A stretch of 64,000 nucleotides of DNA from Cucumis sativus (lineage: Eukaryota > Streptophyta > Magnoliopsida > Cucurbitales > Cucurbitaceae): positions 26,276,075-26,340,074 of the forward strand of contig NC_026658.2 in NCBI RefSeq assembly GCF_000004075.3, given 5' to 3'. Positions 48,616 to 55,205 of the stretch are shown here, one piece after another (the first letter of the stretch is position 1; each line of letters opens with the position of its first letter). The notes under the pieces were generated by a model. The model made no database searches, was not told where the DNA came from, and saw only the letters and a program-made list of their open reading frames with translations. The position numbers and the translations under genes were made by a program.

Positions 48616-51600
48616 TTAAATTGAAATAAGAGCCGAACTAGCCCCAAGTATCGCATCCAACATACTTGGTTTCATCCTTGTTCTCGCCGCTTTGCACCTC
48701 CTAGATTGTAATGATGAGTATGAGTATATGGAATTGTTATTTTCTCTCTCGTTGAGAGGCGCGCTTCCTGGACCTTCTTTTTCCATTCTCACTTTTGGAA
48801 CAGGTTCCAGAGTTGATTGTGGAAGTGGAGGGAGGGTGAACAGGCAAACGGTGCCCATTAACCACAGCAGGGAACCCAACAGCAGGGATTCTGCACGAGA
48901 GCAACGAATATTAATTACATCATTCATTTGACTTCGTATATCAGGCTACACGATTGTTCAATCAACCAACAGATCCAGTTATCATCATCTAAAAACTGAT
49001 GGCCAGATTACTGAAAATAATAGGTGGCCGTTCCTCTGAAAAATTGAACACGGAAGAAGGATAGAGAACAAACACGAGTAGAATTTTAAGAGAAACTAAA
49101 TCTATTTCACAAACTTATAGTGAAATGGAAAAAATGCAATGCCACATTAACTTAAAAAAAAAACAGATTATTCTACTATGAGAGTGTAGACTCCAAAGTA
49201 GAAGGAAAGTGTCAGATTCATGTTATAGGCACACATCTATAAGGTAGTGTATTTGTGAATGGAGCATAGAGCACTACGATCTGTTTTTCAGGGTTATAAG
49301 CTCAAGTCCACATTATTTCCTGTTTATGACATTAAACTTGATTTGGCAGTTGGATCAATCAGACAATATTGGCAAATAATGTGAACTGCAAAGATATGTG
49401 GAACTATCAAATTCTACTCTATCCGACACAAGGAACTTCAATAGAAAGTAACAGAGAGAAAAATGAGTTTTACCATGAAGCAAAACTATATAACACACTT
49501 CAAAACATAAATTGCTTCATGCAAACATTTGACAAAGTAGTTATTGTATAGAAGCACAAAAACTGAAAGGATCTTCTGATTTAAATACTAAAAATTCCAG
49601 ATCTTAAAGTTACTAGTTCATTTTAGGGGCACTTGCAAAAATGACAAAACAAGTTACAATAATTAAGTCTATAGTACAAATACTTTATTATTTGCAAAAA
49701 TGGCAATAAATAAAGCCCAATAAAGCCCAACCCACACATATAAAAGTCTGGATTTGATTATTTTTGCTATATTTGCAAAATCACAAACCTTGAGGACATT
49801 TTTGCAAAATACCTAAACTAATTTGCCACTCAATACAATTTCCCTTCATTTTAATTATGAATTTTATTATATAACACTAGGCAGTAGACATGTGTTAGAT
49901 AGCAAAAGAGACTAAGACAGGTAGCTTAATTGTCCAGAGGACCGAGGCAGAGTCACAGGCGCCTTCTTAGGTCCATAATATCTCACTAGCCAAGTTTACT
50001 CAGAATTGACACCCCAAACGTTTTCCTTCACAATTTTCACTTTTTGCAGTGGTTTGTAGCCACCCTCCAAAACAAGATGTATAGAATTAGTAAAAAATTT
50101 AGTTTCACTCTCCTACCTCCAGCAACAGAAGGAAAGCACCACCAGCTATATCGGCCTCTAAATAAAATGAGAAATGTAGTCGGATAAAAAGACAGCAAAT
50201 GCCCTATACTTGAATATATTCTTCAATGCATAGGCAGTCCTTTAAAAGAGGCTAATGTCTATATGTGTGTTAATTAAAACCATACTTACACAGAAAATAA
50301 AAGGAGTATCGCGTAGATCTCTTTTGACAGCCATTTGGATTTTCATTGTCTACCTTTTAGGAGAGTTTTGCCCAATTTTTTAAATTATAAAATCATTTTT
50401 AAAGACAAATGGTGTCTTAGATGTTCTTCATCCACTTATTCTAAAGGCGGCAAAGGTCCATGACAAAACGGATGCGGAAAATGTTTGTAACTTTACCTTT
50501 TAAACTTTTCAATGATTTCTCCTATGTTGACATCCAAACAACCAGCAGCACACACAAATTCATTTGGCTATATATGAAATAGTAAGGCGCAAAGGAAAAG
50601 ATAACCGTACCCAACAAGAGCACAGCAGACTCCTGCTTGGTCATTGAAACACCAGAAGCACCTCCCATCTGTAGACTAAAGCGTAAGGCTTGATTCTCAG
50701 CACAGTAACACTGAAGCAAACGCCCCAATCTCCGGCATTCACCTTCAAGAAATTTACTCTTCATCTCTAGATCCTTTACGTACATCTTTTTCCTCTCCCT
50801 AGATCTTACTGCGGCATCCCTATTTCTCAGCTGCCTGTAAAATTCAAATTCATATATTGTAGTTACCCTTTGAACCACATTCATATATTATGACAGCTGA
50901 TATCCAAATGTAAAATGATCGCTGGATGTTTAATTATTTACTATCCTCCTTCGTTGTTCATATCACAGAGTCAACTTCACCCCCATACGATCGAGGCATT
51001 TACTACCCGCATTATCGGTGTTTCAAACATACATGATAACTTCGAATTAAGCATCCTAAATGTCCACAAACTTCAATTAATATTTGGGTGAAATGGTGAC
51101 TTATTGGAAGTAATTGTTAATCTCAAAAGAGAAAATTAAATACATACAGTACCACTACAAATAGAAGACTCGAAAAAAAGGTTTTCATGGCAGAAACTAT
51201 AATTGTTTAAAGAAACTGTAAATTAACACGGGGAAACCACATAATTGATTACAAGTAGTAGAATGCCATCTCGTAAAAGATTCAGTAACAATACCTTCTT
51301 CGCTTCTTGGAGACAGCATCATCATCTTCACCTACACTCTCATCGATGCTCGCTGCGTCGACCTTCTCCTTCTGGGAATTGTTGGAGTCATCACCGCAAT
51401 TGGAAGCATTGGAAAGAACATCGACAACAGCATCAACCCCAGAGGACCTCCCATGTGCATCTGCAAGTACATCAGCCACAAAACTACCACAGCAATCGTC
51501 TGTTGGTGCGGCGGGAGAAACCTTATGTACATCCTCTTTCTGGGAATTGGTTAAATCGTTACCACAGTCGGAGGCATTGGAATCGAAGTCGATTACGGAG

Positions 51601-51851
51601 GGTTGTTCATGAGAGTCTACGAGAAGGTCAGCCAAAAAACTATCACAGAAATCATGAGAAGGAGTAGGAAGGGAAGGGGCGTTGTCTTCATCGTCATTCA
51701 ATAAGGCGTTTTCTATATGGTTGATCCAGGAAGAAATAGAGTCGGGGGATGCCGAGTCCTGGACAACAGGGAATTCCACCTCCGGGAATTCATCAAAGAA
51801 GTTGCAATCAATCTGCCCGATTAAGTCAGAGAAGTGGAGATCCTCATCCAT
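48616..51851 (-). CDS. BZIP60: bZIP60-type ER-stress transcription factor, IRE1-spliced
   Basis: Unfolded-protein-response bZIP factor. Three exons, 51851-51295, 50834-50611 and 48890-48616, encode the 351-aa unspliced form. An acidic N-terminal half (MDEDLHFSDLIGQIDCNFFD) precedes the basic region QLRNRDAAVRSRERKK (N-x7-R) and a leucine zipper. A transmembrane segment (SLLLGSLLWLMGTVCLFTL) then holds it at the ER, with a lumenal tail ending LDAILGASSALISI. The mRNA carries two hairpins with CTGCTG loops. Known plant bZIP60 mRNAs lose 23 nt between such loops by IRE1 cutting and tRNA-ligase joining; here the same cut removes 50625-50611 plus 48890-48883 (15 + 8 nt). The new frame stops at 48739-48737, giving 303 aa with no membrane segment and a basic tail GKRRSRKRASQRERK. 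Intron 2 (1.72 kb) lies inside the IRE1 segment. Duplicated SNASDCGND/SNASNCGDD blocks mark an internal N-terminal repeat. Confidence 0.95.
48868..48890 (-). promoter_or_regulatory. IRE1 hairpin 2 of bZIP60 mRNA, 3' cut site
   Basis: After intron removal the mRNA reads GGAATCC-CTGCTGTT-GGGTTCC: a seven-base-pair stem (one G-U) with CTGCTG in the loop. The first G comes from the end of exon 2 and the rest from exon 3, so the stem forms only after normal splicing. The cut would fall between 48883 and 48882. Confidence 0.8.
50611..50639 (-). promoter_or_regulatory. IRE1 hairpin 1 of bZIP60 mRNA, 5' cut site
   Basis: On the coding strand GAGT-CTGCTGT-GCTC forms a short stem with a seven-base loop CTGCTGT, the CNG|CNGN loop that IRE1 cuts. 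The cut would fall between 50626 and 50625. The exon ends 15 nt later at 50611. Confidence 0.8.
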
Positions 51852-53436: not shown

Positions 53437-53570
53437 CAATCTTCCTCTCCCTCATTCACAAAGCCATCACTGTTCTGTTTCCTCCATTTCTTTTTTAGTA
53501 CAACAATCTTCCTCTTCCTCATTCACAAAGCCATCACTGTTCTGTTTCCTCCATTTCTTTTTTAGTACAA
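53437..53570. repeat. 67-bp tandem duplication
   Basis: Two head-to-tail copies, 53437-53503 and 53504-53570, differing at about one base (TCTCCC versus TCTTCC), with a short partial third start (CAA). The near identity says it is recent. It is non-coding. Confidence 0.88.
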
Positions 53571-54374
53571 CAAACGGATGAGTAGTTATGCTCACCTTAA
53601 TTTGTTATTTAGTACTTTGAAAACCCAAGGCCATAATTTGTTCAATTCCACTATACTCCAATCAATTTATCATGTACAACCTTACTAACTTGAACTTCAT
53701 GGGTGGGCTATTACAACCCACCCATGTTTAGTGATCCAATTACAGTAATAGGTATTTTTAACTATTATAATCTACAATTAAATATAACATTACTATTTCA
53801 AACCCCCTCTTTGCTTCAGTGTATGATCTTGCAACTCAAACATGAATAATAATGACTATCCTAAGATAGTTTGCACACCAAACAAAAACTATTAAAACTC
53901 TTTCACTATAGTAACTAACACAATGCCTCAAGTCAGCGTAGTTGTACAAATAGAATAGTTAGATATAGAAGTAACAAGGCCATACGCAGATAGATGCCTT
54001 ATTCAACAATCATCAATTTGCATAGCACACTCAATGAGTTTCCCATCTTGTTGTTGCCTGGGTCAGAAACTCAAGCAGGAGAGTGGATAGGAAATGATGG
54101 GTTTTAAATGGGTAAGATGAGGCACAAGTTAAAGCATATGGATGATGAAGTGCAGATAGAAATAGTTAAGAGATCATATCCGACAATATCAACTAGAAAG
54201 TTAACCAAAAAGGCTACTCTACTTGATATCACACCCACGGCTTTGTCTAGAAAAGATTTCTACTTCCTATTCAGGCAGAATTATGTGGTGTAAGTAAGGG
54301 TAAGGTACATAATTAAATGACAGAGAGAGCGCAGAACAATTACCAAAATAGAAAGAAAAAAAAATACGAAGACG

Positions 54375-55205
54375 TCACTGCTTCTCCTCCCTTTCTCGGT
54401 TCCACTGTTCAATACGGGCACGTCGCTCTTCGCTACCTTCTCTCACAATGACAGGGCTTCGGCTTCGGCTTCGTCTGGGGCTACCTTGTCTTCTCCTTCC
54501 CCCATCCCTATCATGACGCTCCTTGCTCCGTCCGTTTCCGCGATAGTCACGGTCTCTGTAATCCCTTTCACGCCTATCGTGCTCTTTCCGGTTCCGCGGA
54601 CTCAAACTTCTACTCCTGCTCCGGCTCGCCCTATATCCCCGGTACCTACCGAACAGCTTCCTTCTCAAATCCTTCCCAATCATCTTTACGTGCATAAAAT
54701 TGCAATATCCCCCTCGGTTGCAATTATTCTCCTCGTACTGGCGGCACGTGGCTTCGCGGAAATCAGTTACGGGAGAAAAATCTGCGATAATGGGTCGACC
54801 TGAGTAAAACCGCCCTTGCAAGGCTTGGAGTGCGGCGGCAGCCTGGTCCTCCTCCCTAAACTGAACGTAGACATTTCCAATCATGTGGTCGGCGAGATTA
54901 TCACAGACATTAAGGCTCTCGATCTCACCGAACTTGCCAAGTTCCTCGTAAATGTCTTCGTAGAAATCTTCGAAGTGTTCCTGAATCTTTCGGGGATCTA
55001 TGGGCTGGCCCTGAGCATCAACGCCCGGGGTGATCATGTCGGGGCGCTGGTACATGTTGGATAGGAGAAGAGTAGGGGAAATAGTAGGGCGGTTGTGGAG
55101 GCGAGAGCAGCGATCTCCATGGCGGCAGGCGCCGATCTTGAAATAGAAAGGGCAGTTGACACGGTCCTTCTCGGTGCCAAATATTGAGGCCAAGTGTTCA
55201 GCCAT
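54375..55205 (-). CDS. U2AF35: U2AF small subunit (U2AF35)
   Basis: Small subunit of the U2 snRNP auxiliary factor, which recognises the AG at 3' splice sites together with U2AF65, in the nucleus. One uninterrupted 276-aa coding exon, as usual for plant U2AF35. Order: first CCCH zinc finger ([20 protein letters not shown], near residues 18-37), a U2AF-homology RRM ([20 protein letters not shown] ... [20 protein letters not shown] ... [13 protein letters not shown]), second CCCH finger ([19 protein letters not shown]) and an Arg/Ser-rich tail with [12 protein letters not shown] and [10 protein letters not shown]. The start ATG at 55205 ([20 protein letters not shown]) is the family's usual start. 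No defect is seen. GC-rich coding and an intron in the 5' UTR are likely but not shown. Confidence 0.97.

Follow-up and report, generated by a model that had tools for sequence, protein, structure and literature searches.

The locus analyzed here raises the question of whether an ordinary intron can lie inside the short intron that IRE1 removes from the bZIP60 mRNA of cucumber (Cucumis sativus) and, if so, whether IRE1 cutting depends on prior splicing by the spliceosome. Both were proposed in a first-pass annotation of the window, that is, of the whole stretch of 64,000 nt that was analyzed. The gene is read from the minus strand, and its coding parts and introns are as follows:

51295..51851, minus strand: coding part of exon 1 of bZIP60 (gene model)
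50835..51294, minus strand: intron 1, GTATTG...ACAG (minus-strand reading and gene model)
50611..50834, minus strand: exon 2, with the basic region, the zipper and the first 15 nt of the IRE1 intron (gene model)
48891..50610, minus strand: intron 2, spliceosomal, 1,720 nt, GTACGG...GTGCAG, nested in the IRE1 intron (gene model)
48616..48890, minus strand: coding part of exon 3 in the unspliced frame, with the transmembrane segment; the IRE1-spliced frame stops at 48737 (gene model)

Six combinations of exon ends were tried, and a single one provided GT donors at both introns together with an open frame; the others gave 311 aa with a non-GT donor at intron 2 in one case and stops at 187-190 in four. 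The ends of intron 2 join the frames of one conserved protein, and the exon 2/3 junction is contiguous in protein, with few substitutions, in all of the best 120 of 363 relatives. The ordinary intron of about 1.7 kb that had been placed inside the IRE1 intron is thus a GT-AG intron of 1,720 nt at 50610-48891. The deduced protein contains a bZIP domain (Pfam bZIP_1, E 1.9e-09) and, in the unspliced frame, a transmembrane segment C-terminal to the zipper with a maximum 19-residue hydropathy of 1.95. Its closest named relatives among the matches listed are the bZIP60 proteins of Benincasa and Cucurbita, accompanied by an unnamed Citrullus product, with 94-95% over residues 180-290, which bears out the assignment of the gene to bZIP60. 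A search of the cucumber genome (226.6 Mb, 88 contigs) with the protein as query returned the three bZIP60 exons and one weak match (E 6.2e-5, 40% identity), and the 20 candidates scored gave no sign of a second bZIP60 gene or of a retrocopy. The RNase domain of IRE1 (PF06479) was detected in two pieces at each of two C6 loci, with a fifth fragment containing a stop, and a scan of the window against Rfam at gathering thresholds gave 0 matches.

The elements of the IRE1 site are distributed over exons 2 and 3, with a slash marking the cut within each loop:

50615..50635, minus strand: 5' IRE1 hairpin, predicted fold with a 7-bp stem and the loop CTG/CTGT at 50622-50628, cut between 50626 and 50625
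50611..50625, minus strand: first 15 nt of the 23-nt IRE1 intron, CTGTGCTCTTGTTGG
48883..48890, minus strand: last 8 nt of the 23-nt IRE1 intron, AATCCCTG
48871..48890, minus strand: exon 3 part of the 3' IRE1 hairpin, predicted fold with the outer two G at 50612-50611 and the loop CTG/CTGT at 48879-48885

The motif CTGCTGT is accordingly present on the minus strand at 50622-50628 in the 5' loop and at 48879-48885 in the 3' loop, each on a stem, and the cuts are 23 nt apart in the mature mRNA, where 15 nt and 8 nt are joined to CTGTGCTCTTGTTGGAATCCCTG. The location of the two loops on separate exons, with 15 + 8 = 23 nt between the cuts, was confirmed to the base, and the positions 48883-50625 assigned to the element by the first-pass annotation coincide exactly with both cut points. 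By itself the motif is frequent, with 8 occurrences in the window versus 4.5 expected and at least 8 in 7 of 100 shuffles. The twin site is nevertheless not a chance repeat, because the 20-nt 5' site is matched exactly just once in the 226.6-Mb genome; five further matches carry three mismatches each, and the reversed control of this pattern gave five matches. A third CTGCTGT on the minus strand (48864-48870) starts 15 nt downstream of the 3' loop and lies outside the predicted twin hairpins.

The computed excision of the 23 nt shifts the reading frame, whereby the product changes from 351 aa to 303 aa, loses the transmembrane segment and gains a basic tail with the new end KRRSRKRASQRERK. The junction that results contains the full 24-nt site (24/24 nt) of a primer for the spliced form of Arabidopsis bZIP60, the sequence of which is printed in PMC9302528. 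A protein search for the IRE1-spliced form gave no match among just 11 candidates.

The first-pass annotation had suggested comparing the position of intron 2 with that in bZIP60 genes of other angiosperms. A 121-aa ORF that reads from exon 2 into intron 2 was used as query against 5.8 billion proteins and yielded 118 matches among 125 candidates, with P0121 representing the window's own ORF. The position proved to be shared by grass-like and many eudicot-like sequences, as 88 of the 118 matches diverge into the intron at the exact split codon, a number that is an existence count and not a prevalence, since the query enters the intron, the length filter favours exon fragments and species may be represented repeatedly. 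These 88 sequences read ESAVLLL- or ESAVLT-type residues, then Gly and then leave the family sequence, the Gly being due to the final G of exon 2 and the GT of the intron, which together encode this residue. The remaining matches continue into exon 3 (14 of 118), are odd (3 of 118; P0148, P0199 and P0222) or stop before the site (13 of 118), the split-codon class being assigned by pattern, with P0153, P0175, P0180 and P0237 placed by eye. The residue after Gly, tabulated for 87 sequences, is M in 40, K in 27, T in 12, E in five and another residue in three, in agreement with GTATG, GTAAR, GTACN and GTGAR, which are common plant donors. The cucurbit-like matches P0122, P0123, P0133 and P0138 read GTV after the split, and P0130 reads GMV.

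The exon 2 parts of the read-through sequences (58-72 aa) are 100% identical to proteins of Cucurbita, Citrullus, Alnus, Fagus, Daucus, Nicotiana and Melia, and 98% identical to those of Ziziphus and Pistacia, while the grass-like ones share about 83-93% identity with Digitaria and Paspalum. Named records whose sequence enters the intron or terminates at the split codon stem from Pterospermum (P0161), Digitaria (P0216) and the orchid Platanthera (P0179). The shared position, like the anatomy of the site and its reading frames, is thereby directly observed. No copies of the exon 2 ORF were confirmed in viral and prokaryote genome contigs.

P0186 reads through the whole of an implied 220-nt intron into exon 3 with no in-frame stop, and retention of this intron would lead into the IRE1-spliced frame, giving a soluble-type C-terminus without IRE1. 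The idea that read-through tails serve as a second membrane anchor was set aside, the hydropathy of the window's own tail being just 1.42. A value of 1.6 is reached by 39 of 74 read-through tails of at least 19 residues; U-rich plant introns would yield hydrophobic tails anyway.

Because grass-like and many eudicot-like sequences, the groups compared here, have the same intron position, we infer that in the simplest history the intron was already present in ancestral angiosperms and was lost in the Brassicaceae including Arabidopsis. Intron positions are often conserved passively. The legend of Figure 4 in PMC4398384 locates the 23 bp of Arabidopsis 'within the second exon', and PMC4393087 presents a PCR across the site on Arabidopsis genomic DNA beside RT-PCR products with peaks of the unspliced form, a picture that is compatible with an intron-free IRE1 site. 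The intron may also have been lost outside the Brassicaceae, or the sequences concerned may be transcripts with a retained intron 1, because five of the 14 contiguous sequences among the 118 matches have intron-1-like sequence upstream (P0146, the Eucalyptus model P0153, P0173, P0174 and P0175), as perhaps does the grass-like P0183. Among these, P0174 reads LLWLLGVNIIC, which resembles the LLWLLGVNFIC that an Arabidopsis primer encodes.

Since the second stem was thought to need the last base of exon 2, the first-pass annotation had confined the 3' hairpin to the mature mRNA and made IRE1 cutting dependent on prior splicing. Folding of the respective sequences showed that the 5' hairpin is located wholly within exon 2, from -25 to -5 relative to the exon end with the cut at -15, whereas the 3' stem includes the GG that ends exon 2. 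A 3' stem that forms only after splicing was ruled out, because the terminal AG of the intron replaces the last G of exon 2: in the unspliced RNA this acceptor supplies the nearer G, a single outer pair is lost, and the predicted stability of the hairpin changes from -8.1 to -5.8 kcal/mol with 6 of 7 pairs kept. The requirement for prior splicing is not supported as it was worded, although both hairpins are predicted to be weaker in the unspliced RNA, which speaks in its favour. With 60-nt flanks, the mean pair probability of the 5' hairpin is 0.68 in the mature versus 0.02 in the unspliced RNA, and that of the 3' hairpin 0.83 versus 0.03; with 100-nt flanks, the 3' pairs reach 0.21-0.31 in the unspliced RNA. 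The mature pieces of 48 nt and 78 nt have z values of -2.21 (6 of 200 shuffles as stable) and -1.74 (10 of 200), respectively.

One further fold is predicted for the pre-mRNA:

50604..50626, minus strand: predicted hairpin that pairs the donor of intron 2 with the 5' IRE1 loop region, -11.2 kcal/mol

Of five pieces folded, two show the pairing of donor and loop: a 48-nt piece of -15.8 kcal/mol (z -3.85), whose stability none of 200 shuffles reached, and an 87-nt piece with a shorter helix (z -2.65), whose stability was reached by 2 of 200. In silico replacement of the donor by GTAAGT, GTATGT, GTATGA, GTGAGT or GTACGT, followed by shuffled downstream sequence, allowed the 5' hairpin to form (medians 0.84-0.94, n = 100 each; 0.89-0.94 for the first four), whereas the donor GTACGG with shuffled downstream sequence gave a median of 0.02 (10-90% range 0.00-0.62). 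When only the GT was kept and the rest shuffled, 6 of 200 sequences attained the real value of 0.02, as did 7 of 200 random pieces of intron 2. The 5' hairpin of the unspliced RNA is thus predicted to be weak because the GTACGG donor pairs with the IRE1 loop. As regards the 3' hairpin, the real value was equalled or undercut in 13 of 200 shuffles and in 33 of 200 random pieces of the intron, and the low medians of these controls (0.22 and 0.25) suggest that loss of the outer pair weakens this hairpin in any intron context. In cucumber, folding hence predicts that the IRE1 sites are favoured only after splicing, and the reason originally offered would not be the whole cause.

The effect of the donor on the IRE1 loop would at best be cucurbit-specific, because donors of the GTATG or GTAAR type are implied for 67 of the 87 tabulated relatives, and in most relatives, given their implied donors, the 5' hairpin should persist in the unspliced RNA. 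As a general feature, the hairpin between donor and IRE1 loop was rejected, since the five other donors leave the 5' hairpin formed and GTACGG does not.

These folding data bear on the possibility that IRE1 is indifferent to the nested intron. If both loops of an intron-retaining RNA were cut and the ends ligated, 1,743 nt would be lost and the final, active mRNA would be the same, and since both routes lead to the same product, any dependence on prior splicing becomes a matter of kinetics and compartment. The earlier statement that retention places the two sites 1.7 kb apart is correct in its distance, with 1,743 nt between the cuts, but distance alone is no bar: a HAC1 intron of 626 nt is spliced in Candida parapsilosis, and HAC1 introns of up to 848 nt are reported for its clade. 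The completeness of the 5' hairpin in exon 2, the pairs retained by the 3' hairpin and the behaviour of the 5' hairpin with four other donors also speak for indifference. Against it, the native 60-nt flanks weaken both unspliced hairpins, the 3' hairpin attains only low medians even behind shuffled or random intron sequence, and RNA with a retained intron often stays in the nucleus. Altogether, indifference of IRE1 appears possible but rather doubtful.

Another proposal is that the nesting works as a control, either by an exon junction complex that splicing of intron 2 leaves behind and that covers the IRE1 site up to its removal by the first ribosome, or by regulated retention of intron 2 that withholds the substrate. 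The exon junction complex is deposited about 20-24 nt upstream of a junction, and the geometry would fit, as the interval from -25 to -5 occupied by the 5' hairpin includes AGGAG of its 5' strand at -24 to -20. The wide occurrence of the intron position and a stop 29 codons beyond the split in the retained-intron ORF likewise agree with a control function. Passive conservation of intron positions is frequent, however, and the intron is not essential, given that Arabidopsis splices bZIP60 without it; a working control is therefore considered unlikely. In its boldest form, which we regard as distinctly improbable, nuclear splicing in many flowering plants would license the bZIP60 IRE1 site through an exon junction complex placed on the 5' hairpin, so that cutting follows only the first round of translation. 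The Brassicaceae would have lost this checkpoint along with the intron, and the GTAC-type donor of cucurbits would pair with the IRE1 loop and turn recognition by the spliceosome and by IRE1 into mutually exclusive folds.

A GT is also present 5 nt upstream of the intron 2 donor, at the end of exon 2 (50615-50611). Use of this donor (CTT/GTTGGG) would remove 5 nt and allow the spliceosome to bypass IRE1, as removal of 5 nt and of 23 nt yields the same frame and hence the active C-terminus. The sequences P0148 from Anisodus and P0222 from Chenopodium read ESAVLLIPAVGFP, as expected from such a donor, but they are possibly annotation artefacts: P0148 also has an odd upstream join typical of automatic gene models, and another Chenopodium protein, P0221, is canonical at the site. 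With a donor that moreover departs from the usual consensus, a bypass of this kind is very unlikely.

We consider it highly probable that the IRE1 site of cucumber bZIP60 is a composite, split into 15 and 8 nt by an inherited phase-1 spliceosomal intron of 1,720 nt, with the order of the two reactions set by cellular compartments and no dedicated switch. The spliceosome is nuclear and IRE1 resides at the ER membrane, which is a further reason for placing the spliceosome before IRE1. The spliceosome would first join exons 2 and 3 in the nucleus and thereby create the compact twin-hairpin site. Upon ER stress, IRE1 would cut both loops and an RNA ligase would join the ends; the loss of 23 nt would change the frame and turn a membrane-tethered bZIP factor into a soluble one with a basic tail. 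Whereas the split itself is read directly from the gene, we infer the cleavage, the ligation and the order of these events.

The surroundings of the site include a segment of about 230 bp in intron 2 (49621-49852) that has at least 39 further genomic matches at 78-88%, with 40 of 503 candidates scored, and contains a 12-nt inverted repeat; it resembles a small transposon whose insertion made the intron longer. An ORF at 54375-55205, on the same minus strand and about 2.5 kb upstream of where bZIP60 starts, encodes CCCH zinc fingers and an RRM and resembles the splicing factor U2AF35. A bZIP60-like protein of Hibiscus (P0090) is named 'U2 snrnp auxiliary factor, small subunit', so that the two genes are perhaps neighbours in Hibiscus too. 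Between the U2AF35-like ORF and bZIP60, a 67-bp unit occurs twice in tandem at 53437-53573 (98% matches).

The IRE1-mediated splicing of bZIP60 is itself well known. A spliceosomal intron inside the IRE1 intron was not found mentioned in the literature searched, with some central papers falling outside that search, and as the nesting is readable from an annotated gene it may be noted somewhere. Much of the IRE1-bZIP60 pathway was worked out in Arabidopsis, which is devoid of the nested intron; if the split site is ancestral, Arabidopsis is the exception, and reporters and assays based on it are missing a possible layer comprising exon junction complex placement, intron retention and splice-site choice inside the IRE1 site. 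Lineages with and without the intron provide a natural experiment on whether the nuclear history of an mRNA affects its later cytoplasmic splicing. In practical terms, a PCR across the bZIP60 site on cucumber genomic DNA spans the 1.7-kb intron, unlike in Arabidopsis.

When compared with known systems, animal XBP1 differs in that its IRE1 intron lies within one exon. XBP1 is also a twin-loop substrate of IRE1 with frameshift splicing, and its IRE1 intron has 26 nt. The fungal genes HXL1 of Cryptococcus neoformans and HAC1 of Candida parapsilosis likewise have IRE1-cut introns in a bZIP mRNA; HXL1 additionally has an ordinary intron, but its 55-nt conventional intron lies upstream and its 56-nt unconventional intron downstream of the bZIP domain, and they are not nested. 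Maize ZmbZIP60 and other monocot bZIP60 mRNAs employ the same twin-loop mechanism (PMC3369818), with an IRE1 intron of 20 nt versus 23 nt in cucumber. Grass-like ORFs enter the intron at the homologous split codon (ESAVLT-G), and, judged from a comparison of the protein sequences, the codon missing in monocots would be on the exon 2 side, so that their site is probably split 12 + 8. Arabidopsis bZIP60 (At1g42990), which IRE1 splices, shares with the cucumber gene the excision of 23 nt, a spliced junction identical over 24 nt and a frameshift that drops the transmembrane segment; its 23 bp lie in one exon (PMC4398384), whereas those of cucumber are split 15 + 8 by an intron of 1,720 nt.
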